Origin: Lacrimispora sphenoides
Lineage (GTDB): Bacteria; Bacillota; Clostridia; Lachnospirales; Lachnospiraceae
Assembly: GCF_900105215.1 (NCBI RefSeq)
Contig: NZ_FOIP01000001.1
Coordinates: 2,606,501-2,670,500 of the forward strand
DNA length: 64,000 nt
Direction of reading: 5' to 3'
In this document: positions 2,893 through 32,811 of the stretch, piece by piece
How positions within the stretch are numbered: the stretch's first letter is position 1
Layout: each line of letters begins with the position of its first letter
The notes under the pieces: model-generated
What the model was told of the DNA's origin: nothing
The model's input: the letters and a program-made list of their open reading frames with translations, nothing else
Databases searched by the model: none
Position numbers and translations under genes: made by a program

Positions 2893-2910
2893 CTTGAGTC
2901 AAACGGAACT

Positions 2911-2949
2911 GATACTCCTTCTTCCCCTCAATAGGAAAGAAGGAGTATC
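2911..2949. terminator. Hairpin terminator at the end of the inversion locus
   Basis: There is a 13-bp perfect stem (GATACTCCTTCTT with AAGAAGGAGTATC) and a 13-base loop. There is only a weak T-rich tail, so termination is plausible rather than certain. Bases 2950-3156 hold no gene I can support. Confidence 0.55.
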
Positions 2950-3156
2950 AATATAATAAATTATTTATTCTATCATAAAGTTTACCATTGGCAAAAAAAG
3001 AAATATGGCAAGAAACCACATGGTACTGAAACGGAAGATATCATAAACACGACGGGATGCAGGTGAGGAGTACCAGACAAAAAACTCCAAATACAATCAA
3101 TTATGAAACAAAAACTAAAATTACCAATAGAAAATGAAAGGAGGAACTTATTATTT

Positions 3157-4212: not shown

Positions 4213-4229
4213 GATGAAGAAGGGATTAG

Positions 4230-7200: not shown

Positions 7201-9443
7201 GGATTAAGACTACCTGCCGGTATGATGCAATCAATCAGGTCATTCTAAGGAGAACTGGGGATACCCCATCCGGCCAAGGACGGGAGGTGACAAAATACAC
7301 TTATGACCGCTTTGGAAATGTCACGGCAATGACGGATGCCCGTGGCTATACGGAATACTATGAGTTTGACAAAGCCGGAAGATTGCAGAAAAAAACGGAC
7401 AGAAACAAGGACCAGACCGTTTATCAGCATGATGCCCTGGAACGACTGATAAAGGAAACCGTGCAAAAGAGAACTCCTGATGGAATGGCAGTCAGTGAGA
7501 GGGAGTACGCCTATGGTAAGAACGGCAAGCGGATTCGGGAAGTCAGCCGAGAATTCGTGGGAGGAAAACAAACCCTCCTCCTGGAGACGAAGTACCGTTA
7601 CAATAATAAAGGACAGCTAACACGCCAGGAAGATCCCGGAAATGTAAGGAAAGATTATACTTATGACATATATGGAAACCGGCAGTCCTTTCAACTGATT
7701 TGTGAAGGAAAGGCAAGCCCGGAGGTCAGTATGTATTACGTGTATGGTGACTTATACCGTTTAAAGCAGGTAAGAAAAAGTAACGCTGCCGGGGTGATAC
7801 TGGCAGAGTACGAATACGACGAAAAAGGCAACCGAAAAACCCTCCGCTATCCGCAATCCGGTATGGAAACCAGTTATAAGTATAATGACGGCAACCGGGT
7901 AATATCTTTAGAGAATAAACGGCAGGGAACTGTGATTACTGCATGGGAATACAGCTATGATGTAGATGGGAATATTCTAAGCAAAATTAATAAAGCCAAT
8001 TCTGCCCCAGTCACCATATCATATCAATATGACCGGCTGGGCCGTCTGACAGAAGAAGACTATTCCGACTGGAAGCGGACGATTTATACCTATGATGCCT
8101 ATTCCAACCGTATGAAAATGATGGTGGAAGGAAGAACAAAGGATGAGCTGGTCAGTGTTACCAGCTATGAGTATGGTTCGAACAACCGATTGGAAAAGGA
8201 GACAAAGAAGCAGGGGAAAACGACGGAAACTTATCGGTACCGTTATGATAATAATGGGAATGAGACCTTCCGGATTTGGGAGAAAACAGCGCCAACACCG
8301 GACTATCCTGGAAATGTCAAGTTATCGGGGAATTATCAAAAGGAGACTCCAACGGTTTATGAATGGAGACATTATGATGGATACAACCAGCTAATCCGAA
8401 TCAATCAGGACGAGAAAGAGATTACCTACCAGTACCGGGGAGATGGCCTGCGCCATAGCGCCCAAGTGAGGAAACTCACTGAAAGCCAGGGAAAAACGAA
8501 CCTGTATTGTTGGGATGGAAGCGATATTGTAGCGGAACAGGCGGACGGCGATAAAATGAAAACCTATTTAAGAGGAATCAATTTGATTGCCGGAGAAATA
8601 GACCATGTGGTATACTACTATATATTGAATGAACATGGGGATGTGACCCAGCTTTGGAGTCAAAACGGAACTTGTAAAGCCTCGTATGAGTATGATGCTT
8701 TTGGAACTGAGCGAAATCTAGATAAGGAGGATGATAATCCGTACCGGTATTGTGGCGAGTACTACGATTCGAGCAGTGGCACTTATTATCTCCGTAGTCG
8801 TTATTACGATCCAGTAACAGCTCGCTTTACAACAGAGGATAGTGTCCGTGCACGTAGGAAGAACATTTTTGATCCTTACGGAAATTATCAAGATATTCAG
8901 TTAAATGGTGGGGTATATGTTGATCGGACAAAAGGTCAATATATTGTAGATGATCCGCTTGGTTTGAACTTATATACCTATTGCCAAAATAATCCTATTA
9001 TGTTCACTGATCCAAGTGGGCACGAAGTTACAAAGGATAAGCCGCCGACAGACAATGAAGGATATGTTGCCCCTAAAGGAGGGCCTGTACAAGGCAAAGA
9101 TAAAAGCGGTAATAAAGGCTGGGTTGATAAGAATGGTAACATATGGGTACCAGTTCCTGATGGAAGTCCCAACGCTCATGGTGGTGGGCATTGGGATGTT
9201 CAACGGCCTGATGGAAAAGGATATGTTAACAAATACCCGGGTGGCGCTGAACGTAAGGGATCAGGCAAGGTGCCTAATTTACCTAAAGTTCCCAACAACA
9301 ATGCAGTAAAAGCAGTTGCTACTGGGGTAGCGGTTGCAGCTGGAGGATTTTTAATCTGGACAGGCGTAAAATGGATTACTGCAGCTCTCGTAGCCGCGCC
9401 AACTGGGGGAGTAAGTTTAGTCGTTGCCGCTGTAACGCCATAA
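4230..9443 (+). CDS. Rhs repeat polymorphic toxin (YD-repeat shell, C-terminal toxin)
   Basis: This 1,737-residue protein has an N-terminal Rhs-type domain (LPGRDGFDVSIARRYDS near 90-110) and dozens of YD repeats from about 640 to 1500. The conserved Rhs core follows (YYLRSRYYDPVTARFT near 1520, then GLNLYTYCQNNP and DPSGH near 1577-1600). The variable C-terminal tip of about 138 residues contains HGGGHWDVQRPDGKGY near 1650, resembling the polymorphic toxin type 37 (Ntox37) family. It ends in a glycine- and alanine-rich hydrophobic tail. About 30 residues sit inside the core before GLNLYTY, which is longer than usual. No signal peptide is visible, so the export route is unknown. The shell is known to encapsulate the toxin in this family. 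It is flanked by a TW-repeat gene and a candidate immunity gene. Confidence 0.9.
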   Translation: MNDKKIIEDYIDKNEWEAPDTNADEDVSGEVSSEAESLKIRVRRAALSSEYEFIETKQYPESPFNYFETNQVNAQLNTGNVQYDTTDFVLPGRDGFDVSIARRYDSGCANLVDMAPHVLGSVIRTGSINNTFYTSTYGLGHGWSFVLPSIETVQNFGWTWWPQLSTTRSYDYILHLEDGRSLRMNRDFDVFENYHLKDVEIDTKSGEIWHPYKADTPKSYHLIIKYKNGNRDYFNSNTGDGDRNMGRVDFKLVARQDRFGNTIFYNLKGSQGMEIVDTWGRTITLSRTNDGFVWELPEITAGNACKIAYHINRKGTQTLTEVIGPVGSLTEYNYETSRGYMKCASSGVIGNDPGTQYREYLLLKSVTYPNHASTQFTYDRKISINNSTGGYIDHFALTMKKDIADGAEYNKGEYNYTLDSELQNGKYIEYAKVTNHQDIVETYKFYSDGQLDIKEVKDHNNLISKSDYTYSNKLMIRAIDQVFDRNDQSKFLKKETNWTYSSDQKANVIKFKETYTDDPSSDQEIITEYGDYSLILKTERINGTDLIIEKNELHKDLGNRVIKYHRVYENGVLKEKTEYDYQDKANPYCVTNERKYFLADSGNLEQSGEYAETIYKYSSPSSTASRYTHNVISKEQTVIRDADGKLCDPIKEEFQYDNWGRMVYKKDSRNQVTTYRYDELGRFVVETLPPIDGNQALNETYYNDSLNFITTTDANHQKRRIQYTPFGQIQQVCLAVSKEPATGDVVLQDFRYNSWGELTEAVTYDGNGTAADNIRKTERYSYDSFGRVLSYTIPQVDYEEKHEYNEVFTDPADGMKYFREVKKVIGDAFAPDIVTECYKDQKDQVRKEFLAGKRVFTYIYDNAGNNISKIDDRNTERFEYDYAGRVVKSIRTDSGQERITSIQYDALGNKRFQWDEAGKRTEFQYDKAGRLVQTLAPFDHRSQKVKYYYDGAGNIICEKKTQKDGWQETQYVYDARNRLTDTYQYLSPGSWIKTTCRYDAINQVILRRTGDTPSGQGREVTKYTYDRFGNVTAMTDARGYTEYYEFDKAGRLQKKTDRNKDQTVYQHDALERLIKETVQKRTPDGMAVSEREYAYGKNGKRIREVSREFVGGKQTLLLETKYRYNNKGQLTRQEDPGNVRKDYTYDIYGNRQSFQLICEGKASPEVSMYYVYGDLYRLKQVRKSNAAGVILAEYEYDEKGNRKTLRYPQSGMETSYKYNDGNRVISLENKRQGTVITAWEYSYDVDGNILSKINKANSAPVTISYQYDRLGRLTEEDYSDWKRTIYTYDAYSNRMKMMVEGRTKDELVSVTSYEYGSNNRLEKETKKQGKTTETYRYRYDNNGNETFRIWEKTAPTPDYPGNVKLSGNYQKETPTVYEWRHYDGYNQLIRINQDEKEITYQYRGDGLRHSAQVRKLTESQGKTNLYCWDGSDIVAEQADGDKMKTYLRGINLIAGEIDHVVYYYILNEHGDVTQLWSQNGTCKASYEYDAFGTERNLDKEDDNPYRYCGEYYDSSSGTYYLRSRYYDPVTARFTTEDSVRARRKNIFDPYGNYQDIQLNGGVYVDRTKGQYIVDDPLGLNLYTYCQNNPIMFTDPSGHEVTKDKPPTDNEGYVAPKGGPVQGKDKSGNKGWVDKNGNIWVPVPDGSPNAHGGGHWDVQRPDGKGYVNKYPGGAERKGSGKVPNLPKVPNNNAVKAVATGVAVAAGGFLIWTGVKWITAALVAAPTGGVSLVVAAVTP

Positions 9444-9460
9444 AATGGGAGGAGAATATT

Positions 9461-10360
9461 TTGAATAGCAATTTACACGTGGAATCAGTCAATGGAGCTG
9501 CTTTGGAAGCATTAAGTCAAAACGAGGTATATCAAGCCCAAACTCTTTTTAGGCAAAATGCTAAGAAAAATCCTTGCTTCATAACTTTCAATAATTTGGG
9601 AGTGTTTCATGTTTTTGAAGGTTTAGTAAAATCTAATAATAGTGTACATAGGGCAACAAAGTTGGGTGTAGGATACTTAAAAAAAGCTGAAGCATATCAA
9701 AAATCAAATCTTACATTATCGGCTTTTGGATCGGTATGTTTTGACGCTAAGGACTACGAAGAAGCAAGTGAGTATTTTAGACAAGCATGTGAATTAAAAC
9801 CTGATTATGCTTCTCTATATAACTGTGGAGTGTCCTATTATATGCAAGGCAAATATGGTGAAGCGGTACAATGGTTTCAAAAAGCCTTTGCTATTTGTGG
9901 CGATGACGATTATTCTAAGGCGTCCGTACACTATGCTTTTTCATTGCTCTATAGCAATAGGAAAGAGTTTCTCGTAGCTTTTCATAAAATGTTTAAAGTT
10001 AAGGATGAAAGCATGGAATGGGAAAAGTTTATTTTGGCATATTTTGCTGACGATTTGCTAATGGCAGAAAGTCAAATCGAATCTATGTTAAAACACTTCA
10101 GCATCGACCTCCATGATATGGCAATTGTCTTTGACTGTTTACTTAAATTGGGTAAAGGAGAAAAAGCAACGGAATACTTGAAACAAAAAGTGGAGGCTTT
10201 GGAGGAAAGCGATTATAATATGCGACCTGAGATGAACCGAATGAAAAAGGCACTTTTTCAAGCTGACTATCGAGCAAAGTTGATTTCTGAGTATAGATAT
10301 AAAATACCGCTTATTAAACAATGTTGTTATTACGGTTGTAAACAGCACAATCCCATCTAA
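9461..10360 (+). CDS. TPR-repeat protein, candidate immunity protein for the Rhs toxin
   Basis: Starting at TTG 9461 behind GGGAGGAG gives 299 residues; a longer in-frame extension would overlap the Rhs gene and lacks a ribosome site. Residues ~15-150 contain tetratricopeptide-like helices (for example EEASEYFRQACELKPDYASLYNCG, interrupted, and KYGEAVQWFQKAFAIC). The gene follows the toxin tip by 17 bases and is more AT-rich than the toxin shell. This is the usual position and character of an immunity gene swapped together with its toxin. The immunity role is inferred from position; a regulatory TPR protein is possible. Confidence 0.6.
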   Translation: MNSNLHVESVNGAALEALSQNEVYQAQTLFRQNAKKNPCFITFNNLGVFHVFEGLVKSNNSVHRATKLGVGYLKKAEAYQKSNLTLSAFGSVCFDAKDYEEASEYFRQACELKPDYASLYNCGVSYYMQGKYGEAVQWFQKAFAICGDDDYSKASVHYAFSLLYSNRKEFLVAFHKMFKVKDESMEWEKFILAYFADDLLMAESQIESMLKHFSIDLHDMAIVFDCLLKLGKGEKATEYLKQKVEALEESDYNMRPEMNRMKKALFQADYRAKLISEYRYKIPLIKQCCYYGCKQHNPI

Positions 10361-21926: not shown

Positions 21927-21957
21927 GTAAATAAAATGGAACCTGTTTTTTATTTAC
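21927..21957. promoter_or_regulatory. Inverted repeat upstream of feoA
   Basis: GTAAATAAAA and TTTTATTTAC form a 10-bp inverted repeat with an 11-base spacer, 51 bases before the feoA start. It may be an operator for a metal-dependent regulator. It does not match the classical Fur box well, so the regulator is unknown. Confidence 0.35.
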
Positions 21958-22007
21958 TGCATATGTTAGGATATGGAAACTTTTTTTAGATGTATGGAGG
22001 CAGAAGG

Positions 22008-22310
22008 ATGTCTGAAAATATATGCTTAACAGATTTAAAAAGGGGTCAGAAGGCAGTGATTGCAAAGCTGGCCGCCTATGATGATATGAGAAGGCGCTTA
22101 CAGGATATTGGCATTATAGAGGGTACTACTGTGGAGTGCCTGGGAAAGAGCCCTTTGGGAGATCCTACGGCATTTTTAATACGGGGTGCGGTAATCGCTC
22201 TTAGAAGCGAGGATTCCGGCCGCGTCTTGGTGCAGTCAAATATAGAGGAAAAAGCAAACCGTCATTATGGGAAAGAAATGGTGGCTGCTAACCTTTCGCT
22301 GGAGGATTAG
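22008..22310 (+). CDS. feoA: FeoA, ferrous iron transport accessory protein
   Basis: This 100-residue protein has a FeoA/SH3-like domain (LKRGQKAVIAKLAAYDDM, then LQDIGIIEGTTVE, and an AVIALRSEDSGRVLV ending). I place the start at ATG 22008 because GGAGG (21996-22000) gives proper spacing; ATG 21990 has none. It is two bases upstream of the feoB 5' part. FeoA is a cytosolic modulator of the FeoB ferrous iron transporter. Confidence 0.92.
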   Translation: MSENICLTDLKRGQKAVIAKLAAYDDMRRRLQDIGIIEGTTVECLGKSPLGDPTAFLIRGAVIALRSEDSGRVLVQSNIEEKANRHYGKEMVAANLSLED

Positions 22311-22312
22311 GT

Positions 22313-23620
22313 ATGGGATTAAGCAGGGAATCGATGGGAATAAAGTCTGTGGACTGCGGTCTGGAAATTAAGAAACGGAAGGAAGAGGATAAGGTCATTG
22401 CACTGGCCGGAAATCCCAATGTAGGTAAGAGTACGGTATTTAATCAGCTTACTGGGATGAATCAGCATACAGGAAATTGGCCGGGAAAAACCGTTGCCAA
22501 TGCCCAGGGCTGGTGCTCGGATGGTCAGCAGGGATATGTTATGGTGGATATTCCCGGCTGCTATTCCCTGATGGCCCATTCCACGGAAGAAGAGGTTGCC
22601 AGAGACTTTATTTGCTTTGAAAACCCGGATGCAGTAGTCGTAGTCTGTGATGCCACATGCCTGGAGAGAAACTTAAACCTGGTGCTGCAGATCATGGAGG
22701 CAACGACCAATGTGGTGGTATGTGTAAACCTTATGGATGAGGCTAAAAAGAAGAAAATTTTCTTAAACCTTGATATCTTGGAACAGCGCCTGGGGGTCCC
22801 GGTTGCCGGAACTGCAGCCAGGAGCAATAAGGGACTTGATCAGATCTACACCGGTTTAAAACACTGCCTGGAACAAAAAGAAGAGGTAGAGGAAAAACCT
22901 GCTCTCATCCAATATCCCCAATATATTGAAGATGCCATTGCCAGGCTCCTGCCCGCAGTGGAACAATTGGCCAAGGGAAAGGCAGAGGCCCGATGGCTTT
23001 GTGCCAGACTGTTGGATGCCAATGAGAATCTGATGGAAGCCGTAAGAAGATACCGAAAGACCGTGGCCGATTCCGAAGAAGTGGCTTCCTGTCTTGCTGA
23101 AATCTGGGAAGAATGGAAGACTGCCGGGATCAGCCAGGAGCAGGTAAGCGACGACATGGCTACTGTTTTCATAAATAAGGCAGAAAATTTATGCATGGAT
23201 ATCGTGGAATATGAAAATCAGACCTATAACCGGAAGGACCGGAAGCTGGATTGGATTTTTACCAGTAAGGCTACGGGCTTTCCCATTATGTTCCTGGTTT
23301 TACTTGGAATCTTCTGGATTACCATAACAGGGGCCAATTACCCGTCAGAGTTAATAAGCACCGTACTGTTTAAGATAGAAGCCTGGCTGATCGGGCTGGC
23401 TGACGCTGCCGGTGTGCCGGTGATTATCACTGAACTGCTGTTTCATGGCATTTACCGGGTTCTGGCCTGGGTAGTAGCGGTTATGCTGCCTCCTATGGCA
23501 ATATTTTTCCCATTGTTTACTCTTCTGGAAGATTTTGGATACCTTCCCAGAGTGGCTTTTAATTTAGACAGATGCTTTAAAAAGTGTTCTGCCTGCGGAA
23601 AGCAGGCGCTTACCATGTGA
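22313..23620 (+). pseudogene. feoB: feoB 5' part (GTPase domain and first membrane spans), interrupted
   Basis: This 435-codon segment holds the FeoB G domain with GNPNVGKST (G1), DIPGCYS (G3) and NLMDEA (G4), a helical linker, and the first membrane part ending LPRVAFNLDR and GKQALTM. The reading frame then stops at TGA where an inserted element begins. The missing remainder is found intact at 31966-32811. Joining at CATGTG gives TM-CMGFGC, a standard FeoB sequence, in frame. As it stands it cannot form a complete Fe(II) transporter. If the element excises, it encodes the first 435 of 715 residues. The soluble GTPase could still be made. Confidence 0.93.
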
Positions 23621-23661
23621 CAATGGAAATCTATGCTTTTTTTGATTCTTCCATGTTTAAC

Positions 23662-23690
23662 TTGACACTTTTTCTTAGAAATGTTATATT
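23662..23690 (+). promoter_or_regulatory. Promoter of the CcdA-TlpA gene
   Basis: TTGACA (23662-23667), a 17-base spacer and TATATT (23685-23690) lie about 100 bases before the gene and inside the element's left end. Confidence 0.7.
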
Positions 23691-23788
23691 TATTTACACG
23701 TAAACTGTAACTGAAAATAATACAGAATCACAACTAAAAACGCCGGAAATCAGTAACATATGGCACAACCAAAAAGGAGGTACAGTAT

Positions 23789-25102
23789 TTGGGCTTTTCT
23801 ATCGACGTAAGTATTCCAGTTATGACCGTGTTTCTTCAGGGGATTATCAGCTTCTTTTCTCCCTGTGTGCTGCCACTCATCCCGCTTTACATAGGGTATC
23901 TGTCGGGAGGGACGGGAGTCCGCGGGGAGGACGGGCGGATTTATTATAAACGCAGCAAGGTTATGCTTCACACTGTCTGCTTTGTTATCGGGGTCAGCTT
24001 CGCATTCTTCCTGTTGGGGCTGGGATTCTCAGCTCTTGGAAGCTTTTTTAAATCAAACCAGCTTCTTTTTGCAAGAGTGGGAGGTATCCTGGTAGTTTTA
24101 TTCGGTTTATACCAGCTGGGAGTTTTTGGGACCTCATCTGTATTGGGAAGGGAACGCAGACTGCCATTTTCCCTTAATACCCTGGCCATGTCGCCCTTAA
24201 CTGCGCTAATCATGGGCTTCACCTTCAGCTTTGCCTGGACGCCTTGTGTGGGACCGGCCCTTGCCAGTGTCCTGCTTATGGCTGCCTCAGCCTCCACAAA
24301 GGCAATGGGTTTTGTCCTGATTGGAGTATATACCCTGGGATTTGTTCTGCCGTTTCTGGCAGTGGGATTCTTTACTACCACAGTGCTTGAATTTTTTAAG
24401 ACTCACGGCAATATTGCAAAGAATGCGGTAAAAGTCGGAGGAGTTCTCATGGTATTTATGGGAATTTTAATGTTCACCGGAAAGATGAATGCTGTGACCG
24501 GATACCTTTCATCCATTCCGTCACCTACGGCCACAGAATCAAGAGAGACGCCGCAGCCGGAAACGACTGCAAAAGCATCGGAAGAAGAATCTGCATCTGA
24601 AGAAGAATCCGTATCGGAATCGGGGAATACCGGTGAGTCAGATGAAGCCAATGAGCCTCTTCCGGCAGTTGATTTTACTTTAACCGATCAGTACGGCAAT
24701 ACTCATTCTCTTTCTGATTATAAAGGAAAGACGATCTTTTTAAACTTCTGGGCGACCTGGTGTCCCCCATGCAGGGCGGAGATGCCGGACATCCAGAAAA
24801 TATATGAAACTGCTGATACAGAAGGGGATAATGCACTGATCATTCTGGGTGTGGCAGCACCTAATTATGGAAATGAAAAAGATGAAGAGGGAATTAAACA
24901 ATTCCTGAACGAAAACGGATACACCTATCCGGTTCTGATGGACACGAATGCGGAACTGTTTGAAGCTTATGGAGTATTCTCTTATCCGACCACATTTATG
25001 ATTGATAAGGATGGCAATGTATTTGGTTATGCAAGCGGTCAGCTTTCGGAAGATACAATGCGCAGTATTATAGAACAGACCATGAAGGGGCAGCGGAAAT
25101 AA
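23789..25102 (+). CDS. CcdA-TlpA fusion: membrane thiol-disulfide carrier with thioredoxin domain
   Basis: This 437-residue protein begins at TTG 23789 after AAAGGAGGT. Residues 1-230 form a CcdA/DsbD-type six-helix domain (FFSPCVLPLIPLYIGYLSG, then FAWTPCVGPALASV, each with a redox Cys). An acidic Ser/Glu linker spans ~245-290. A TlpA/ResA-type thioredoxin domain follows, with NFWATWCPPCRAEMPDI near 320-335. It should carry reducing equivalents across the membrane to extracytoplasmic disulfides. It is the first gene inside the feoB element and has its own promoter and terminator. Confidence 0.9.
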   Translation: MGFSIDVSIPVMTVFLQGIISFFSPCVLPLIPLYIGYLSGGTGVRGEDGRIYYKRSKVMLHTVCFVIGVSFAFFLLGLGFSALGSFFKSNQLLFARVGGILVVLFGLYQLGVFGTSSVLGRERRLPFSLNTLAMSPLTALIMGFTFSFAWTPCVGPALASVLLMAASASTKAMGFVLIGVYTLGFVLPFLAVGFFTTTVLEFFKTHGNIAKNAVKVGGVLMVFMGILMFTGKMNAVTGYLSSIPSPTATESRETPQPETTAKASEEESASEEESVSESGNTGESDEANEPLPAVDFTLTDQYGNTHSLSDYKGKTIFLNFWATWCPPCRAEMPDIQKIYETADTEGDNALIILGVAAPNYGNEKDEEGIKQFLNENGYTYPVLMDTNAELFEAYGVFSYPTTFMIDKDGNVFGYASGQLSEDTMRSIIEQTMKGQRK

Positions 25103-25131
25103 TCTGCCGATATGGTTAAAACAGAGCAATT

Positions 25132-25175
25132 ATGGCATTCCAAAGGGGAAAAGAATCTTTGGAATGCCATTTTTA
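25132..25175. terminator. Bidirectional terminator between ccdA-tlpA and the FadR-type gene
   Basis: The 14-bp stem pairs ATGGCATTCCAAAG with CTTTGGAATGCCAT and is followed by TTTTTATT. It can serve both converging genes. Confidence 0.88.
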
Positions 25176-25880
25176 TTGGTTGAAATTACTGGAGGATTTT
25201 TCTTCATGAGCCTTGCGCAAACGGTCCCGGTTGTAAATGAGATGAAGAGTCATGGCATCCTGTGCGGCAATGGCATCGTTTTTTTGTATGGCATTTACAA
25301 TTGCCATATGTGTTCTTATGGTTTCTTCTTTTAACTCGGAATGGGTAATGTCAATAAGCATATCAATAGCATGCATAATAAGAGGCTCAAGCTGCGGTAC
25401 GATGACATTTCCGCTGATCTCTGCAATCTTAGCATGGAAAATGGCATCGGCTTCTGAGTGGGATTTTCCTAAGTCGTAACATTCCGCCACCCGTTCCGCC
25501 AGGTGGAGAAGCTCCTCGGCCTGCTCCGGTGTGGCCTTTGAGGCAGCCATAGCGGCGACCCTTGGCTCGATCATCATGCGGAATTCTAAAAGATCAGTCA
25601 CCAGTTTCTCCTTATTTTCTATAAAGGTGAATCCAAGTGGATCATCAGCCACACCTGTATTGTGGCAGACGTAGATTCCGGACCCTTGCTGAACTGTCAG
25701 AATGTTGCGTGAAACAAGAGCCCGTATGGCTTCCCGCAGAGTGCTCCGCCCAACGCCCATAAGAGAGGAAAGCGTGGTTTCATTGGGGAGCTGTGCACCT
25801 TCTTTTAATTTATTATCAATGATATATTTGATGATTCCTTCCGCTGTTGTATCGGCAAGAGATTTATGTGATGGTGTCAT
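25173..25880 (-). CDS. GntR/FadR-family transcriptional regulator
   Basis: This 235-residue protein has an N-terminal winged helix (ANETTLSSLMGVGRSTLREAIRAL-type, seen as PNETTLSSLMGVGRSTLREA) and an all-helical FCD ligand domain. The FCD domain has the metal-binding Asp/His pattern (EADAIFHAKIAEISGN, and a late AIQKNDAIAAQDAMTLHL). It is divergent from the IlvD/Edd dehydratase gene. FadR-subfamily regulators next to such dehydratases usually respond to sugar acids, so it probably controls 26166-27881. Confidence 0.88.
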   Translation of the reverse strand: MTPSHKSLADTTAEGIIKYIIDNKLKEGAQLPNETTLSSLMGVGRSTLREAIRALVSRNILTVQQGSGIYVCHNTGVADDPLGFTFIENKEKLVTDLLEFRMMIEPRVAAMAASKATPEQAEELLHLAERVAECYDLGKSHSEADAIFHAKIAEISGNVIVPQLEPLIMHAIDMLIDITHSELKEETIRTHMAIVNAIQKNDAIAAQDAMTLHLIYNRDRLRKAHEEKSSSNFNQ

Positions 25881-25931
25881 GGCAAATTCCTTTCAGGTGA
25901 ACAATAGTTTTATCTGATTATAAATGTAATT

Positions 25932-25961
25932 TCTGATTCATTCAAGTGCAAATGAATCAGA
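25932..25961. promoter_or_regulatory. Candidate FadR-type operator
   Basis: TCTGATTCATT and AATGAATCAGA form an 11-bp perfect inverted repeat around CAAGTGCA in the divergent region 25881-26165. Further ATGAAT/ATGAGTCAT-like copies follow up to the dehydratase promoter, suggesting clustered operators. Confidence 0.5.
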
Positions 25962-26083
25962 TGAGTCATGAGTACATGAATATTGGTCTGATGAATATAT
26001 AAAAGAAATAGATAATACATGATAGTATGTATGAAAATATTAGGAAAATACATGAAATAATGAAATGAATCATGAGGAATAGT

Positions 26084-26112
26084 TGACAATCATGTGATGA
26101 ATTATTATAATC
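26084..26112 (+). promoter_or_regulatory. Promoter of the IlvD/Edd gene
   Basis: TTGACA (26084-26089), a 17-base spacer and TATAAT (26107-26112) give a consensus promoter 53 bases before the start codon. Confidence 0.8.
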
Positions 26113-26165
26113 AAGATATAAATATAAAATGAAAAATTCAAGATAAACAGGAAAGGAGCATTATT

Positions 26166-27881
26166 ATGGTTAGTCAGGATATACGGAAACTAGCTCCGGA
26201 AATCGACCCGCTTCGGATGGGTATGGGCTGGAAGGTAGAGGACCTTTCTAAAATGCAGATCATGGTGGAGAGCACCTTTGGAGACAGCCATCCGGGAAGT
26301 GCTCATCTAATGGAACTGGTAAATAAGACAGTGGATGGGGTAAGAGATAAAGGAGGAAAGGCAGCCAGATATTTTACAACGGATATCTGTGATGGAATGG
26401 CCCAGGGCCATGACGGCATCAACTATTCTCTGGTCTCCCGTGATACGATCTGCAATATGATTGAAATTCATGCTGGCGCAACTCCATTTGACGGCGGAGT
26501 ATATATTTCAAGCTGTGATAAGGGAGTGCCTGCTCATCTTATGGCAATCGGCCGGGTGAATATGCCTTCCATTCTGGTAACCGGCGGTGTTATGGATGCC
26601 GGCCCGGATCTTCTTACCCTGGAACAGATCGGTAAGTACAGCGCCATGTGCCAGAGAGGGGAACTGGAGCCGGAAAAGCTGGAATATTATAAGCAGCATG
26701 CCTGTCCATCCTGCGGAGCCTGTTCTTTTATGGGAACGGCATCAACCATGCAGGTCATGGGAGAGGCCCTTGGCCTTATGCTTCCAGGATCCGCTCTTAT
26801 GCCAGCAACCTGCCCGGATTTAAAGGATATGGCTGAAAGAGCCGGACATCAGATCATAGAACTTGCAAAAAAGGGAATAAAACCAAGAGATATTGTTACC
26901 ATGGAATCCTTCGAAAATGCGATTATGGTACATGCCGCCATATCCGGATCAACCAATTCCCTGATCCATCTGCCGGCGATTGCCCATGAATTTGGTTTGG
27001 AAATAGATTCTGAGATGTTTGACCGGCTGCACAGGGGGGCCCATTATCTTCTTGATATCCGGCCCGCTGGAAAATGGCCGGCTCAGTACTTCTACTATGC
27101 AGGCGGAGTGCCCAGGATCATGGAAGAGATCAAATCCGTGCTTCACCTGGATGCAATGACTGTAACAGGAAAGACTCTGGGTGAAAATCTCGATATATTG
27201 AAACAAAATGGCTTTTATGATAAATGCGATGAATATTGTGCAAACGTCGGTGTGAAAAAAGAAGAAATAATCCGGCCGTTTCATGATGCCATCGGAACAG
27301 ATGGGGCAATTGCCATCTTAAAAGGAAATCTGGCACCGGAAGGTGCGGTCATTAAGCATACGGCATGTCCAAAGGAGATGTTTGAGGCGGTGTTAAATGC
27401 ACGCCCCTTTGACAGCGAGGAAGAGGCGATTGAGGCGGTTTTGAAACACCGCGTAAAACCTGGAGATGCTGTATTCATCCGATATGAAGGTCCAAAGGGA
27501 AGCGGAATGCCGGAAATGTTCTACACCTCTGAGGCGATTTCATCGGACAAAGAGCTTGGACGCACCATTGCCCTGATCACAGACGGGCGTTTTTCCGGAG
27601 CTTCCACAGGTCCTTCCATCGGACATGTTTCTCCGGAAGCAGCGGATGGCGGTCCCATTGCACTCGTGGAGGAAGGGGATATGATCCAAATTGATATTCC
27701 TAACCGGATCCTTGCAATTGTAGGTGTAAAGGGCCAGCGAAAGACAGAAGATGAGATGGAAAAGATTCTTACGGAGCGGCGGGAGCAATGGCAGCCAAGA
27801 CCTTCAAAATACCAGTCGGGAGTATTGAAAATATTCAGTGAACGTGCAGTATCGCCAATGAAGGGCGGTTATATGGAGTAA
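26166..27881 (+). CDS. IlvD/Edd-family dehydratase (dihydroxy-acid or sugar-acid)
   Basis: This 571-residue enzyme of the IlvD/Edd family has Fe-S cluster cysteines in SSCDKGVPAH and CPSCGACSFMGTAS, and the family ending DGRFSGASTGPSIGHVSPEA. It follows AGGAAAGGAG. IlvD acts in branched-chain amino acid synthesis, while relatives dehydrate aldonic acids such as xylonate, arabinonate or gluconate. The divergent FadR-type regulator and the absence of other ilv genes favour a sugar-acid dehydratase; this is an inference. It is cargo of the feoB element. Confidence 0.85.
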   Translation: MVSQDIRKLAPEIDPLRMGMGWKVEDLSKMQIMVESTFGDSHPGSAHLMELVNKTVDGVRDKGGKAARYFTTDICDGMAQGHDGINYSLVSRDTICNMIEIHAGATPFDGGVYISSCDKGVPAHLMAIGRVNMPSILVTGGVMDAGPDLLTLEQIGKYSAMCQRGELEPEKLEYYKQHACPSCGACSFMGTASTMQVMGEALGLMLPGSALMPATCPDLKDMAERAGHQIIELAKKGIKPRDIVTMESFENAIMVHAAISGSTNSLIHLPAIAHEFGLEIDSEMFDRLHRGAHYLLDIRPAGKWPAQYFYYAGGVPRIMEEIKSVLHLDAMTVTGKTLGENLDILKQNGFYDKCDEYCANVGVKKEEIIRPFHDAIGTDGAIAILKGNLAPEGAVIKHTACPKEMFEAVLNARPFDSEEEAIEAVLKHRVKPGDAVFIRYEGPKGSGMPEMFYTSEAISSDKELGRTIALITDGRFSGASTGPSIGHVSPEAADGGPIALVEEGDMIQIDIPNRILAIVGVKGQRKTEDEMEKILTERREQWQPRPSKYQSGVLKIFSERAVSPMKGGYME

Positions 27882-27899
27882 TAAAATGAAGAGAAAATG

Positions 27900-27930
27900 G
27901 GTATGGCAGGGGAGCTGCCATGCCTTTTTC
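27900..27930 (+). terminator. Terminator after the dehydratase
   Basis: GGTATGGCAG pairs with CTGCCATGCC (one G-U) and is followed by TTTTTC. Confidence 0.85.
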
Positions 27931-27977
27931 TATTATTGAGGATATAGTATGAGATTAACATATGGTGGAGGGGCGCG

Positions 27978-28020
27978 GTATATGGTACAAACCTGTTTGA
28001 ATAGGATTTCTCAGGAGGTG
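27978..28020 (+). repeat. Duplicated leader, copy 1
   Basis: This 43-base segment matches 30240-30282 at 38 of 43 positions. It includes GTATATGGTACAAACCTG and ends in the ribosome site CAGGAGGTG of the small gene at 28027. Confidence 0.8.
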
Positions 28021-28026
28021 GATGAT

Positions 28027-28170
28027 ATGGATTCATCAGATCAGGTGACTTATGAGGAAAAAAACATGACCATAAAGGTGGAGCGGGTTTTTATTGGTGA
28101 AAAAACAGCTAAGGAGCGGGTTTTGGAATTATTGAAAAAACGCAGGGATGCCGGGGAGTTTCGGACATGA
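28027..28170 (+). CDS. Small conserved-looking protein of the feoB element
   Basis: This 47-residue protein (MTIKVERVFIGEKTAKERV in its middle, charged LLKKRRDAG end) has CAGGAGGTG six bases upstream. Its leader is a near copy of the serine recombinase leader at 30240-30282. Small proteins next to large serine recombinases can be recombination directionality factors, so that role is worth considering, but no recognised family supports it. It could also be the remnant head of a duplicated recombinase operon. A strong hairpin follows. Confidence 0.55.
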   Translation: MDSSDQVTYEEKNMTIKVERVFIGEKTAKERVLELLKKRRDAGEFRT

Positions 28171-28274
28171 TCAGATTCAGTTATGATCGTTCCGTAGCCT
28201 GGCTCAGGATGCATTGCACTTCTGTATGGGGAAGTCGCTTTGAATATTGTTGGAAGTATGTGTATAATGGTGTT

Positions 28275-28332
28275 AAAACAGGACTTAATCAGCCCCTTAA
28301 TAGAGGAGGGGTACTGGAAAGCCCTGTTTTTC
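28275..28332 (+). terminator. Two-tier hairpin terminator
   Basis: An outer stem (AAAACAGGACTT with AAAGCCCTGTTTT) and an inner stem (CCCCTT with GAGGGG) are followed by a T-run. It separates the small gene from the repair operon. Confidence 0.7.
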
Positions 28333-28450
28333 TATACCCATTGTTAGGTTTTCAGGTAAGGAAGAGTAAATTTAAAATTAAATGGTGCAAAATAGGAGGA
28401 CACGCGAACTGATTTCGGATATATTAGTAATAGAAAAGGAGGCAAATCTT

Positions 28451-28921
28451 ATGAAACATACAGCATATATTAAAACTGCCTTGGGTCCGATTAAAATATC
28501 CGAAGTGGATGGTTTTATTACTGAGTTGCTTTTTGTAAAAGATACCCTTGAAATTCCCGGAGAACAGAAGACCCCTTTGTTGGAGAAAGCGGAAAAGCAG
28601 ATTAAGGAATATCTGGACGGGACAAGCAGGGGATTTGATTTGCCGCTTGCTGCAAAAGGGACGGAGTTTCAAAAGACCGTATGGGAAGCCCTGCATAAAA
28701 TTCCGTATGGAGAGACGCGAAGCTATAAGCAGGTTGCGGAAATGATCGGAAGTCCGGACGCATCCCGGGCGGTTGGTATGGCAAATGGCAAAAATCCCAT
28801 ACTGATCCTGACACCGTGTCACCGTGTAGTGGGTTCAGATGGCAAGTTGACAGGCTATGCGGCAGGCCTTGAAATCAAGGAACAACTACTGGAATTGGAA
28901 CTGACATATGGCGGCCGTTGA
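28451..28921 (+). CDS. ogt: Methylated-DNA-protein-cysteine methyltransferase
   Basis: This 156-residue O6-alkylguanine transferase has the helix-turn-helix IPYGETRSYKQVAEMIG and the acceptor motif PCHRVVG (single-use Cys). I start at ATG 28451, 9 bases after AAAGGAGG. It transfers alkyl groups from O6-guanine to itself. It overlaps the glycosylase gene by 14 bases. It equals AdaB/Ogt in the Gram-positive adaptive response. Confidence 0.93.
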   Translation: MKHTAYIKTALGPIKISEVDGFITELLFVKDTLEIPGEQKTPLLEKAEKQIKEYLDGTSRGFDLPLAAKGTEFQKTVWEALHKIPYGETRSYKQVAEMIGSPDASRAVGMANGKNPILILTPCHRVVGSDGKLTGYAAGLEIKEQLLELELTYGGR

Positions 28922-29525
28922 GACGAAGTTCTTTGATTACGGCAGGAAGGAAATAGAATACCTCTCCAATTCAGATCCGGTGCTTGGTGATGCGATGGCA
29001 CGGTTCGGAAGGGTGGAGAGGGAGGTAATTCCTGATCCCTTTGCTGCTCTGGTCAATGCGATTATAGGCCAGCTAATATCTGTAAGTTCTGCCAAAACCG
29101 TATGGAGCCGAATTCAGGAAAGTCTCGGAGATATTACCCCGGAAAACTTATCAGCCGTTTCCGCGGATGAAATTCAGCGCTGCGGCATGATCATGAAAAA
29201 GGCTATAACCATCTCTGAGCTGTCAAAGGACATTTTACAGGGTAAGGTATGTCTGAATAATTTGCGGCAACTGCCAGACCAGGAGATCATCCGGTACTTA
29301 ACGACGATAAAAGGGGTTGGGCTTTGGACAGCTGAAATGCTTCTCATTAATTGCCTGGAACGTCCCGATGTGGTTAGCTGGGGTGACATCGCCATTCGCA
29401 GGGGAATGGAAAAACTGTATGATTTTCCTAAGCTGACAAAGGACCAATTCGAAGTGTGCAAGAGACGGTATTCACCCTATGGCTCGGTAGCTTCCATTTA
29501 TTTGTGGAAGATTTCCTTTTTATAA
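28908..29525 (+). CDS. DNA-3-methyladenine glycosylase, AlkA-type HhH-GPD
   Basis: This 205-residue protein of the HhH-GPD fold has the hairpin LTTIKGVGLWTAEMLL and the catalytic Asp in SWGDIAIRRG. It lacks the N-terminal extension of E. coli AlkA, as do many Firmicute forms. It removes alkylated purines. The gene lies between ogt and adaA, so the three probably respond together to alkylating agents. Confidence 0.88.
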   Translation: MAAVETKFFDYGRKEIEYLSNSDPVLGDAMARFGRVEREVIPDPFAALVNAIIGQLISVSSAKTVWSRIQESLGDITPENLSAVSADEIQRCGMIMKKAITISELSKDILQGKVCLNNLRQLPDQEIIRYLTTIKGVGLWTAEMLLINCLERPDVVSWGDIAIRRGMEKLYDFPKLTKDQFEVCKRRYSPYGSVASIYLWKISFL

Positions 29526-29597
29526 GGTAGGATAACATGGCAATGGAACGGAAGAATACCCATGGTACGGCAAATATATGAAAGGAGGTGTATTGCC

Positions 29598-30161
29598 ATG
29601 CTGACAGAGGAGGAAAAATGGAAGGCAGCGCTTGAATGTGATACGTCTTATGACGGAAGATTTTATTACGGAGTAAAAACAACAGGAATTTTCTGCCGTC
29701 CTTCCTGTAAATCAAAAAGCCCTAAACGTGAAAACGTTGAATTCTTTGATACACCAGAGCAGGCACGTGAAAGCGGGCTTCGCCCCTGTAAGCGCTGCCG
29801 TCCTGATTTGCTGGAATTTCACCCGCAGAGAGAGAATGCGGAAAAAATTAAAGTAGTTTATGACCTTTATTATTCAGACAATGATCGCTTAAGGGAGGAA
29901 TTGAAAAATCTTGGGCTCAGCAGAAACAGAATCCTCCAGCTGTTTCAGAATCAATATGAAAAGACCCCGACGGAGTATTTAAATGGTTTACGCATAGACA
30001 ATGCAAAAAAGCTTCTGGCAAATACCCCGGATAATATTCTGCAGATTGCTTTACAAAGCGGCTTTGGAAGTCTTTCATCTTTTTACACACAGTTTAAGCG
30101 TGTAACGGATGTTTCTCCCAATGAATACCGGGAGAATCTCACAGGAAAGAATGCTGATTAG
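29598..30161 (+). CDS. adaA: AdaA-type methylphosphotriester sensor / AraC regulator
   Basis: Starting at ATG 29598 behind AAAGGAGGTG gives 187 residues. The N-terminal Ada zinc domain has FCRPSC and CKRC ligands, one of which accepts a methyl group from DNA phosphotriesters. The C-terminal AraC motif includes NILQIALQSGFGSLSSFYTQF. The order and partners match the adaptive response, in which methylated AdaA activates the repair genes. It sits directly upstream of the serine recombinase, separated only by tandem repeats and a leader, so read-through could link alkylation damage to recombinase expression (inference). Confidence 0.9.
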   Translation: MLTEEEKWKAALECDTSYDGRFYYGVKTTGIFCRPSCKSKSPKRENVEFFDTPEQARESGLRPCKRCRPDLLEFHPQRENAEKIKVVYDLYYSDNDRLREELKNLGLSRNRILQLFQNQYEKTPTEYLNGLRIDNAKKLLANTPDNILQIALQSGFGSLSSFYTQFKRVTDVSPNEYRENLTGKNAD

Positions 30162-30172
30162 GAGAATGGTGA

Positions 30173-30232
30173 ACTTTAGGAAGCAGTACTTTAGGAAGCA
30201 GTACTTTAGGAAGCAGTACTGTAGGAAGCAGC
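30173..30232 (+). repeat. Four 15-bp tandem repeats upstream of the recombinase
   Basis: ACTTTAGGAAGCAGT is repeated three times exactly and a fourth time with two changes. The array lies between adaA and the recombinase leader. It could be a protein-binding array or a slippage-prone spacer. Confidence 0.9.
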
Positions 30233-30239
30233 ACCTATA

Positions 30240-30282
30240 GTATATGGTACAAACCTGCTGGAATAAGATTTTCCAGGAGGTG
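30240..30282 (+). repeat. Duplicated leader, copy 2 (recombinase leader)
   Basis: This near copy of 27978-28020 (38 of 43 identical) carries the AGGAGGTG ribosome site for the recombinase. Confidence 0.8.
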
Positions 30283-30288
30283 TAAGTG

Positions 30289-31953
30289 ATGGATCGATTA
30301 ACTCAGGCAGCTTATGAGAAAAAGAACGTCTTTACAAAGGCGTCAGCCTGCTACAAGGCGGCGCTTTACATGCGCCTGTCAAAAGACGACGATGGTACAG
30401 GGGAAAGCTCCAGCATTGGCACTCAGCGGAAAATGCTTCGTTCCTATGCGATAGAAAATGACTTTGAAGTTTACGGGGAATATGTGGATGACGGCTACAG
30501 CGGAACCAATTTTGACCGCCCGTCCTGGAAACGGCTGTTGAAAGATATAGATGCAAGGAAGGTAAACCTGGTAATTACCAAGGATTTATCCCGCCTTGGA
30601 AGGGATTATATCATGACAGGACAGCTTACTGAAATTTATTTTCCTTCCAGAGGGATCCGATACATAGCGGTCAATGATGGATATGATTCCGATAGTCCGT
30701 GGAGTGATATTGCACCGTTTAAGAACATTGTAAATGAGATGTATGCCAGAGATACTTCAAAAAAGATCCGCAGTGCATTCCAGACCAAAATAAATGAGGG
30801 GGCATTTATCGGAAATTTTGCTCCCTACGGCTACCAGAAGGATCCGCAAAATAAAAACCACCTTCTCATTGATCCTGTGGCAGCTTCCATTGTCCGGGAG
30901 ATATTTGAATGGGCGGAGCAGGGGGCGGCTCCAACCCAAATTGCAGAGTATTTAAATGAGAGAAAGGTGTTGACACCGGCCATGTACCGCTGCGCCGAAC
31001 GGCCTTATTTGAACTCGGATGATTATTCTAGGAGAAAGGAATGGACATCAGGCACGGTCTGTAAGCTGTTAAGCAACCCCGTATACTTAGGCCACATTGT
31101 TCAGGGAAAGACTGTAAAGGTTTCCTTTAAAAGCAGTATGACCCTTCGGAAGCCCAGAAACGAGTGGGTAGTCGTTGAGGATAAGCATGAGCCACTCATT
31201 TCCGGGGAGACTTATGAACGGGTAAGAAGACGGAGCGTTTCCCGCAAAAGCACAGCGGTAACCGGTTTTACCAATATTTTTTCCGGACTTGCCAAGTGTG
31301 GGGACTGCGGCCGAAACATGTCGTCCACAGGAACCGGTAGAAAAGCGAAATCCCGCAAGCTGGTATGCGGAGGGTATAAGCTTTACGGAAGGAAAGAATG
31401 TACGAATCACTTTTTAGATTACGAACTTCTTTATCGCGTAGTGCTTCAGGAAATCCGCAGCCTGCTATCATTTACGGAAAGTGAAAAGGAAGAAATCGAA
31501 GAAACCCTTCGTGAGCCTGTTAGCCCTGTAGAAATGCAGGGGGAAGAAAAGGCAGTGTTTTCACTGAAAAAAAGAAAAAAAGAGCTTGGTTACATAATTG
31601 AAAAACTCTATGAAGACCGGGTAAATGAAAGGATTAGTGAGGAGCGGTTTTATATAATGCTGGATTCCTGTGAAAAGGAGGAAAAGAAGATTGCAGAAAG
31701 CCTGGCCTTGATGGAAAGACCCTGTTCTTTGGATCAGGAAAGTGAGCCTGCTTCTGACTGTCTGCTATCAAGCCTGTTAAAGGATATAAGCCAGGAAAAA
31801 GGGCTTTCTTCCGATTTGCTGGGAAAATTTATAGATAGAATTGAGATTTTCCAAAGCAGTGAAGGGGGAGAGGGGAAAGCAGGGCGTAAATACCAGACGA
31901 TCCGGATCTATTACAAAGTGGCTCCTATAGAAGATAGGAATGGTTTAGCATAA
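30289..31953 (+). CDS. Large serine recombinase of the feoB element
   Basis: This 554-residue recombinase starts at ATG 30289 behind AGGAGGTG; the preceding GTG is in frame but too close. The N-terminal resolvase domain has the nucleophile Ser in GESSSIGTQR, YSGTNFDRP, and the catalytic Arg region KDLSRLGRDY. A recombinase domain and a zinc ribbon follow (CGDCGRNM, then VCGGY and KECTNH near 340-375). A coiled-coil region comes after that. It resembles TnpX/TndX-type recombinases. Its stop is 11 bases from the right feoB junction, so it is the likely enzyme for integration and excision of the element. All catalytic features seem intact. Confidence 0.93.
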   Translation: MDRLTQAAYEKKNVFTKASACYKAALYMRLSKDDDGTGESSSIGTQRKMLRSYAIENDFEVYGEYVDDGYSGTNFDRPSWKRLLKDIDARKVNLVITKDLSRLGRDYIMTGQLTEIYFPSRGIRYIAVNDGYDSDSPWSDIAPFKNIVNEMYARDTSKKIRSAFQTKINEGAFIGNFAPYGYQKDPQNKNHLLIDPVAASIVREIFEWAEQGAAPTQIAEYLNERKVLTPAMYRCAERPYLNSDDYSRRKEWTSGTVCKLLSNPVYLGHIVQGKTVKVSFKSSMTLRKPRNEWVVVEDKHEPLISGETYERVRRRSVSRKSTAVTGFTNIFSGLAKCGDCGRNMSSTGTGRKAKSRKLVCGGYKLYGRKECTNHFLDYELLYRVVLQEIRSLLSFTESEKEEIEETLREPVSPVEMQGEEKAVFSLKKRKKELGYIIEKLYEDRVNERISEERFYIMLDSCEKEEKKIAESLALMERPCSLDQESEPASDCLLSSLLKDISQEKGLSSDLLGKFIDRIEIFQSSEGGEGKAGRKYQTIRIYYKVAPIEDRNGLA

Positions 31954-31965
31954 ATTTCCGCTGTC

Positions 31966-32811
31966 ATGTGCATGGGGTTTGGATGCAATGCGGCAGGAAT
32001 TATCGGATGCCGGATCATCGATTCTCCGAGAGAGCGGCTGATTGCCATGATTACCAATAATTTTGTGCCGTGCAACGGGCGATTCCCCACCATGATCGCC
32101 ATTATAACCATGTTTTTCGTGGGAGGGGCCACGGGTGCTTTTTCCTCCATATTGTCTGCGGCTATCCTGTCAGGTGTGATTATCCTTGGGATTATCATGA
32201 CGCTTGTCATATCAAAGCTGTTATCGGCTACCATATTGAAGGGGGTTCCCTCCTCCTTTACCTTGGAGCTGCCGCCTTACCGGAGGCCTCAGATCGGCAA
32301 GGTCATCGTGCGTTCCATATTTGACCGTACCCTGTTTGTATTAGGCCGTGCTGTTTCCGTAGCGGCTCCGGCCGGGCTGGTCATCTGGCTTCTGGCCAAT
32401 ATATCGGTTGGTAATGCGACCCTGCTGGCCCACTGTTCCGGCTTTCTGGATCCTTTAGCCAGACTCATGGGCTTAGACGGAGTTATCCTTCTGGCTTTTA
32501 TCCTGGGTTTTCCGGCCAATGAAATCGTGGTTCCCATCATCATCATGTCTTATATGGCAGAGGGAAGCATTCGGGATATCAGCGACCTGTCCGTCTTAAA
32601 AGAGCTTCTTGTAGCCAATGGATGGACCTGGATTACTGCAGTAAGCACCATGCTGTTCTCCCTGATGCACTGGCCTTGCTCCACCACCTGTCTTACCATC
32701 CGGAAAGAGACACAGAGCATGAAATGGACGGCTGTTTCCTGGTTGGTCCCCACTGTAACCGGATTTGTGGTATGCTTTTTATTCACAACTATTGCAAGGG
32801 TTTTCCTCTGA
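31966..32811 (+). pseudogene. feoB: feoB 3' part (membrane domain), separated by the element
   Basis: This 281-codon stretch begins MCMGFGCNAAGIIGCRIIDS and continues through the FeoB Gate and core membrane domains to the end of the protein. It matches exactly what is missing from the 5' part at 22313-23620. No ribosome site precedes the ATG, so it is probably silent unless the element excises. The frame is open without further damage, which argues that the gene is still under selection or was interrupted recently. Confidence 0.93.

Follow-up and report, generated by a model that had tools for sequence, protein, structure and literature searches.

The feoB gene in the window, a stretch of 64,000 nucleotides from Lacrimispora sphenoides (contig NZ_FOIP01000001.1), is split at codon 435/436 by a serine-recombinase element of 8,351 bp (31965 minus 23614), and we consider it probable, at roughly four chances in five, that this is a skin-like element which resides in a sporulation operon, feoAB, and is excised in the sporulating mother cell. 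We hold as more probable still the weaker claim that excision of the element is possible and would leave a functional gene. During sporulation, the recombinase encoded in the element would excise it in the mother cell, with a small protein encoded upstream of the recombinase probably acting as the directionality factor, and the mother-cell chromosome would then have an intact feoB for transcription by sigma-K, and the rejoined gene would supply the late stage of spore formation with ferrous iron. The element would stay in the spore chromosome because excision is limited to the cell that dies, and the same limit would allow feoB to gather further elements, such as those found near codons 52 and 478 in related genomes (elements 2 and 3 hereafter, the element of the window being element 1). 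The original prediction had described an excisable serine-recombinase element that restores feoB and is comparable to skin, and that description is upheld; its alternative of a recent insertion is not, and its proposal of a toggle for ferrous iron uptake takes a modified form, as discussed below.

Ends of the element and indirect signs of excision

The open reading frame (ORF) of feoB is split exactly between two copies of a short core and stays open after removal of the intervening DNA (435 + 280 = 715 codons by arithmetic), and a site-specific recombinase gene lies within the element, as is characteristic of skin-like elements. The 3' part retains the Gate and FeoB_C domains of Pfam. The positions originally given for the two halves and for both copies of CATGTG, as well as the size of 8,351 bp, are correct to the base; the predicted uninterrupted 715-codon FeoB agrees with the sum of the two parts; and the recombinase stop, which ends at 31953, does lie 11 bases ahead of the right core, which begins at 31965. 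The 6-bp repeat is unremarkable alone and was rejected as stand-alone evidence, since CATGTG occurs 32 times in the window against 26.5 expected. Its significance derives from the recurrence of the same codon and core in all 20 readable loci of the genus, from the dyad at the circle joint, and from related elements in other places that have this core too.

When the two ends of the element are joined as they would be in a circle, the joint forms a dyad that matches at 17 of 22 positions about TG, a score that none of 20,000 shuffles attained and that, in a control on the real window, only 2 of 63,840 positions reached (score of at least 17). An attP dyad with a 2-bp centre is what large serine recombinases use, and the centre in the left core, TG at 23616-23617, is the probable crossover dinucleotide. 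The circle-joint dyads in 20 genomes of the genus score 15-21 of 22. Outside the genus, counts drawn from 26 loci give the core ATGTG at 14 of 14 5' junctions and at 17 of 19 3' junctions of related elements (L142 and L146 being the exceptions), and the rebuilt dyads of L139 and L145 score 20/22 and 16/22, respectively.

Several assemblies contain what might be traces of excision. A contig of 6.1 kb from a metagenome-assembled genome (MAG), L126, which begins with a tRNA-Arg gene and has no feoB, carries an attP-type joint (16/22, at about 2125-2170) directly behind a recombinase of the feoB-associated clade, as would be expected either of an excised circle or of an element located elsewhere. 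The contig carrying the element begins and ends exactly at the core in G005, extends 15 bases past the core on both sides in G018, where the contig of the 3' half stops at the core, and begins at the core in G021, where its other end lies inside the recombinase gene. A 5' fragment in G018 (residues 1-54) also stops at a contig end, at the attachment (att) site of codon 54. By chance, a contig end would fall no more than 16 bp from a given core with a probability of 0.0007-0.005 per assembly, and a mixture of integrated and excised DNA would give contig ends at att sites; we regard these ends as indirect signs and not as proof. A scaffold of G001 that includes a run of unknown bases has duplicated feoA and feoB pieces around element 2 (L080, L101), and these duplications could stem from mixed excised and integrated DNA in the assembly. 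A phage form of the element was considered and rejected. A scan of viral contigs for the recombinase gave 72 loci, and of the two at 53% that were examined, L267 is itself a feoB locus, with a recombinase followed by the start of the feoB 3' part and then by a second recombinase, and feoB was not found in the part of the L332 contig that was seen; attP-type patterns had no match in the viral contigs.

Age of the element and selection on the two halves

The genome of the window consists of two contigs, and its close relatives are Lacrimispora. Among 25 genomes of the genus, all 20 in which both junctions are readable (in G015 they lie on two contigs) have feoB interrupted at the same codon and flanked on each side by ATGTG, and together with G005, G018 and G021, where the element is on a separate contig, they make up 23 element-bearing genomes; neither a feoB orthologue nor a close recombinase was found in G010, which is 67% complete. 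In the comparison of feoB in related strains that the original prediction proposed, G012 is the one genome of the genus in which feoB was found in intact form only. A DNA pattern for the 5' half, which reaches the core ATG and misses contigs that end earlier, found it in none of G005, G018 and G021, and a protein search recovered residues 1-54 up to the contig end in G018 and residues 1-58 in G021, on a contig that continues into element 2, and did not find the 5' half of this orthologue in G005. The FeoB 5' part of G006 (L090), G016 (L091) and G024 (L092) is longer, by about 170 codons in the first and by about 66 in the other two, and the extra length sits within the open frame as far as seen.

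Distances between recombinases are closely correlated with those between FeoB proteins (Mantel r 0.963, with 0 of 2000 permutations as high) in 17 of the 20 genomes, G006, G023 and G024 being omitted, as expected if the element was already in the ancestor of those 17 genomes. Both parts of the gene are under purifying selection. From pairs with a synonymous distance (dS) of 0.05-2, the 5' half has a median ratio of nonsynonymous to synonymous substitution (dN/dS) of 0.083 (17 sequences) and the 3' half one of 0.062 (12 sequences, all stop-free, eight others being cut by element 3). The median is 0.159 for the recombinase (18 sequences, without G023 and G024) and 0.077 for a CcdA-TlpA fusion gene carried by the element (16 sequences). 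The 5'-half pieces of L080 and L083 have a stop near their start, which we attribute to sequence of element 2 included at the margin of the match. Sequence comparison thus indicates that the element is a long resident of feoB; an insertion too recent to have decayed, which the original prediction entertained, is rejected on the shared codon, the co-divergence with FeoB and the low dN/dS of both halves.

The 3' half starts in the membrane part of the protein, kilobases away from the promoter, and a Shine-Dalgarno motif precedes it in 0 of 19 loci, compared with 18 of 18 for feoA (search stretches of 20 and about 27 bases). Purifying selection on a 3' half that lacks such a motif implies that the gene is exposed to selection in its rejoined form in some cells at least, and the constraint would be hard to explain otherwise. 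It is true that both halves would also be conserved if the FeoB pieces were translated apart and assembled without excision, and in the window, where the ATG of the 3' half follows the recombinase stop by 12 bases, translational coupling is conceivable. Such separate chains are nevertheless very improbable given the missing Shine-Dalgarno motifs, given that the recombinase is not directly before the 3' half in 9 of 36 feoB-associated loci (it is beside the 5' half or on the opposite strand), and given seven genomes with three interruptions that would leave a near-invariant piece of about 41 residues on its own. The genome has two distant FeoB paralogues, about 31-33% identical to the 5' half, so the other copies that the original prediction raised as a possible source of redundancy do exist, but redundancy is contradicted by the continuing selection on the halves. 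These paralogues, like the element's own integrase and its variable cargo, would suit a selfish integrative element that has become fixed in feoB and left the gene dead or on its way out. We consider this very unlikely in view of median dN/dS values of 0.06-0.08 in both halves across the genus that shares the split, 12 of 12 stop-free 3' halves, and an invariant promoter block, which is described next.

The feoAB promoter and its probable link to sporulation

The gene directly upstream of feoB has no NCBIfam match, and we take it to be feoA from its position. In the region ahead of it, 20 aligned sequences from 19 loci of the genus share the block TGCATATGTTAGGATATGGAAAC without change, and AC sits 17 bases ahead of CATATGTTA, which fits the sigma-K consensus, whose spacing and form, CATAnnnTA, are those of B. 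subtilis. The start of feoA transcription would be expected just 3' of GCATATGTTA and would be sigma-K-dependent. The strict motif is present in 19 of 19 loci against a shuffle mean of 0.07 (19 of the 23 element-bearing genomes were counted, G005, G006, G018 and G021 being out), and it precedes none of the 38 ORFs counted in the window and 4 of the 329 counted at other loci. A search of the 450 bp ahead of each of the two paralogous feo loci in the window genome did not find the motif; words such as AATGATTCTCA, which we take to be Fur-box-like, were noticed there by eye. As far as the available part of the source goes, the -35 element AC, as opposed to ATA, is what separates sigma-K from sigma-E promoters, their -10 elements being very similar, and C. 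difficile feoA (CD1518) and feoB (CD1517) belong to the sigma-K regulon, with a ratio of 0.05 and a sigma-K promoter (PMC3789822). Moorella spore proteins, according to the accessible text, also include a FeoB that was matched to CD1517 (PMC8745062).

The sigK gene of the window genome is itself split by a recombinase-bearing element. Both of its pieces score best for SigK models, an intact SigE is encoded elsewhere, and the 3' piece is abutted by a three-domain serine recombinase. This sigK element (L231, G000:C2:1708500-1721500, about 2905-9494, minus strand) is roughly 6 kb, and its ORFs include small and large subunits of a NiFe-hydrogenase, a cytochrome-b5-like protein, a hydrogenase maturation protease and the serine recombinase. 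The promoter comparisons point to feoAB as a mother-cell (sigma-K) operon, and the element in feoB would then fit the pattern of intervening elements that sit in mother-cell genes, as described in the available part of an earlier report (PMC4191935).

The sigma-K motifs in 19 of 19 loci and the sigma-K dependence listed for C. difficile (PMC3789822, as far as available) are also what turns the originally proposed toggle of ferrous iron uptake into excision in the mother cell. In a reversible switch, the element would leave and re-enter feoB in growing cells, for instance under iron starvation or alkylation stress. Re-entry is possible in principle, given that the recombinase of the C. difficile skin element suffices alone for integration according to the available text (PMC5025042), and the cargo of the window element does include alkylation-repair genes. 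Those genes are, however, present in only part of the genus, the promoter is of the sigma-K type, two other FeoBs are encoded in the genome, and no excised state of this orthologue occurs in any assembly of the genus; we therefore regard such a switch as improbable.

Excision in the mother cell also has observations to set against it. The excised junction of this orthologue, for which the original prediction proposed to look, was seen in no assembly of the genus: an intact-junction pattern is absent from 21 of the 23 element-bearing genomes and in the other two, G009 and G020, belongs to a separate intact feoB, while the attP pattern is found in 0 of 25 genus assemblies and two attP-type patterns gave 0 matches in viral contigs. 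Since the second copies of G009 and G020 themselves have the sigma-K motif, excision is not strictly essential there, and G012 has the intact form only, a 722-codon feoB, without a close recombinase. No contig end lies at these cores in 20 of the 23 element-bearing genomes, and the further breaks in G021, like the one in G015, fall away from att sites. Symmetry at the feoB site itself is weak (8/20), the rebuilt dyad of L144 is weak (11/22), and in G023 the recombinase match is spread over three reading frames and that of CcdA-TlpA over two, from either decay or sequencing error. As for the promoter, the 19 loci of the genus are related and hence not independent, the strict motif outside the genus occurs in just 4 of 13 split feoAB (13 of 16 split loci were counted; shuffle mean 0.05) and 13 of 29 intact feoAB (shuffle mean 0.45), the likeness to C. 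difficile feoAB depends on a published listing with orthology to CD1517 assumed, and searches for upstream motifs gave the recombinase no assignable sporulation promoter. The presence of the motif in split and intact feoAB alike implies that sigma-K-type feoAB exists with and without elements.

Contents, relatives and known systems

The features of the locus are collected in Table 1. The recombinase has the Resolvase, Recombinase and zinc-ribbon domains of large serine recombinases, and neither phage structural nor conjugation genes were recognised among the eight proteins of the window element (Pfam for all, PHROGs for two). The CcdA-TlpA fusion is at the left end in 23 of 23 element-bearing genomes of the genus, with the ResA and StoA models of NCBIfam below cut-off, the recombinase is towards the right end wherever that end is on the contig, and the middle varies among genomes, the alkylation-repair genes of the window being one version of the cargo. 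The element measures 8.35 kb in the window and 4.9-17.1 kb in 16 measured loci; that of G022 has 4.8 kb and that of G008 20.2 kb. Ahead of the CcdA-TlpA gene, at 23660-23695, there are TTGACA and TATATT at sigma-A-like spacing, which suggests that this cargo may be expressed vegetatively. Relatives of the 47-residue small protein of the window immediately precede the recombinase in 17 of the 23 element-bearing genomes, and outside the genus a small protein is encoded ahead of it, by eye, in about half of 24 loci; Pfam and NCBIfam gave no match for the 47-residue protein. A relaxed form of the TATATGGTACAAAC motif precedes the recombinase in 21 of the 22 loci of the genus and in 6 of 26 outside loci (shuffle expectation 0.02). 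It was rejected as a general sporulation promoter, with 5 matches in the genome against 4 for a reversed control, and none of three matches beyond the element is upstream of a gene recognised as sporulation-related. Short tandem repeats of about ggaagcagtacttta occupy 30172-30235, just ahead of the recombinase leader.

Table 1. Features of the split feoB locus, in positions of the window.
Feature	Position	Strand	Basis or remark
feoAB promoter, sigma-K consensus AC-N17-CATATGTTA	21941..21968	+	genus alignment, strict motif
feoA	21990..22310	+	directly upstream of feoB, conserved with feoB
feoB 5' part	22313..23620	+	codons 1-435, ends ...ALTM then TGA; FeoB_N, FeoB_Cyto, partial Gate (Pfam)
attL, left core CATGTG	23614..23619	+	sequence, genus junction comparison
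Left element end, one attP dyad arm	23618..23639	+	
CcdA/DsbD-TlpA (ResA/StoA-like) fusion	23789..25102	+	DsbD_TM and Redoxin (Pfam)
GntR/FCD regulator	25173..25880	-	variable cargo; Pfam
IlvD/EDD-type dehydratase	26166..27881	+	variable cargo, 7 genomes; Pfam
TATATGGTACAAAC motif, copy 1	27979..27992	+	upstream of small ORF
Small protein, 47 aa	28027..28170	+	candidate directionality factor
O6-methylguanine-DNA methyltransferase	28442..28921	+	variable cargo; Pfam
HhH-GPD DNA glycosylase	28908..29525	+	variable cargo; Pfam
Ada metal-binding domain and AraC helix-turn-helix	29562..30161	+	variable cargo; Pfam
TATATGGTACAAAC motif, copy 2	30241..30254	+	upstream of recombinase
Large serine recombinase, feoB-associated clade	30286..31953	+	Resolvase, Recombinase, Zn_ribbon_recom (Pfam); phrog_95 integrase
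Right element end, second attP dyad arm	31945..31966	+	
attR, right core CATGTG	31965..31970	+	
feoB 3' part	31966..32811	+	281 codons, MCMGFGC start; codons 436-715 once joined

Among the 20 genomes with readable junctions, feoB is also split near codon 52 in 12 and near codon 478 in 8, the combinations being element 1 only in 7, elements 1 and 2 in 5, elements 1 and 3 in 1, and all three in 7. Element 2 is known in G006 from its 3' boundary alone, and element 3 was called by its left boundary in eight genomes, with the right end found in G017, G016 and G024. In G003, element 2 is about 2.4 kb, with a recombinase on the opposite strand that is 24% identical to the element-1 recombinase over 361 residues. 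Element 3 of G017 (L102) is about 10.7 kb. It encodes a recombinase with 40% identity to that of the sigK element in the window genome and 21% to that of element 1; from their translations, its ORFs read as a beta-galactosidase, an ABC sugar transporter and a two-component system, unlike the cargo of element 1. By sequence reading, rejoining at the shared cores of elements 2 and 3 is in frame, and eight genomes share a near-invariant stretch of about 41 residues that lies between elements 1 and 3.

A scan of named genomes covered the best 80 of 263 recombinase relatives. Of these, 41 recombinases have an identity of 43% or more, and 36 of the 41 are situated at feoB, 35 of them no more than 302 bp away and one at 1.6 kb; the five others are on contigs of 5.0-6.1 kb, three of which are Lacrimispora element contigs; none of the 39 recombinases below 40% identity lies at feoB. 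A further relative at 43% (L058), outside this set, is 59 bp from a feoB 3' half. Hosts of the clade include Sporobacter, Anaeromicropila, Anaerovorax, Blautia parvula, Cuneatibacter, Anaerotignum, Fusibacillus and many MAGs. In a survey of the order, FeoB of this type (E <= 1e-90) was found in 64 of 392 genomes, of which 13 outside the genus look split here from an open frame of 443-484 codons and most others look intact, and split and intact feoB, called by frame length, both occur within single genera. We lean, if only slightly, towards a broader reading in which the mother-cell feoB of Clostridia is a standing "DNA-intron" gene. The recombinase clade would have become specialised, in many genera, on a single codon of feoB, with up to three unrelated elements in Lacrimispora that would all need excision before the transporter is made. 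A gene needed only in a dying cell would be a cost-free harbour, and the elements would serve as changeable islands of redox, DNA-repair and sugar-uptake cargo.

No report of an element in feoB was found in the literature covered, which left out preprints and most subscription journals. Among papers that mention feoB together with attachment sites and an integrase, one treats feoA and feoB as island genes and another reports feoB inside prophages, and in their available parts neither describes a split feoB. Residence of a skin-like element in a gene for metal transport appears to be new, as do the recombinase clade associated with feoB and the presence of up to three elements in one gene. If the proposal is correct, programmed excision in sporulating bacteria extends past coat, germination and sigma-factor genes to metal transport, FeoB-driven iron import in these bacteria is predicted to take place late in sporulation, at the sigma-K stage, it becomes testable whether terminal-cell genes act as safe harbours for mobile DNA, and an integrase clade with one conserved target site offers readable attP and attB sites.

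The nearest comparison is the skin element in sigK of B. subtilis and of C. difficile (skinCd, with CD1231 as recombinase and CD1234 as directionality factor). An internal large serine recombinase, in-frame restoration on removal of the element and, probably, a mother-cell gene are shared with it, as far as the available text describes it (PMC5025042), and the window genome too has a split sigK. The feoB element differs from skin in that its host gene encodes an iron transporter, that its recombinase is only 24% identical to that of the sigK element in the same genome, and that no phage genes were recognised among the eight cargo and recombinase proteins scanned. Residence in a sporulation gene is probably shared with the elements SPbeta in spsM, vfbin in spoVFB, vrin in spoVR, gin in gerE and yin in yabG; spsM is under sigma-K, and the small protein SprB is required for excision, according to the accessible parts of the reports (PMC4191935, PMC10747680, PMC5595907). 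None of the host genes named in those parts is a transport gene, and they make no mention of several unrelated elements in one gene or of a many-genera recombinase clade at one gene. The XisF model of NCBIfam matches the feoB-element recombinase far below its cut-off (99 vs 375 bits). In cyanobacteria, terminal-cell genes, the nif genes of heterocysts, gather several elements that are excised in that cell, and the feoB locus would share with them a terminal-cell gene that has taken up several elements, although the phylum and the trigger are different, so that the two systems, if our reading of feoB is correct, would represent convergence on several elements in one terminal-cell gene.

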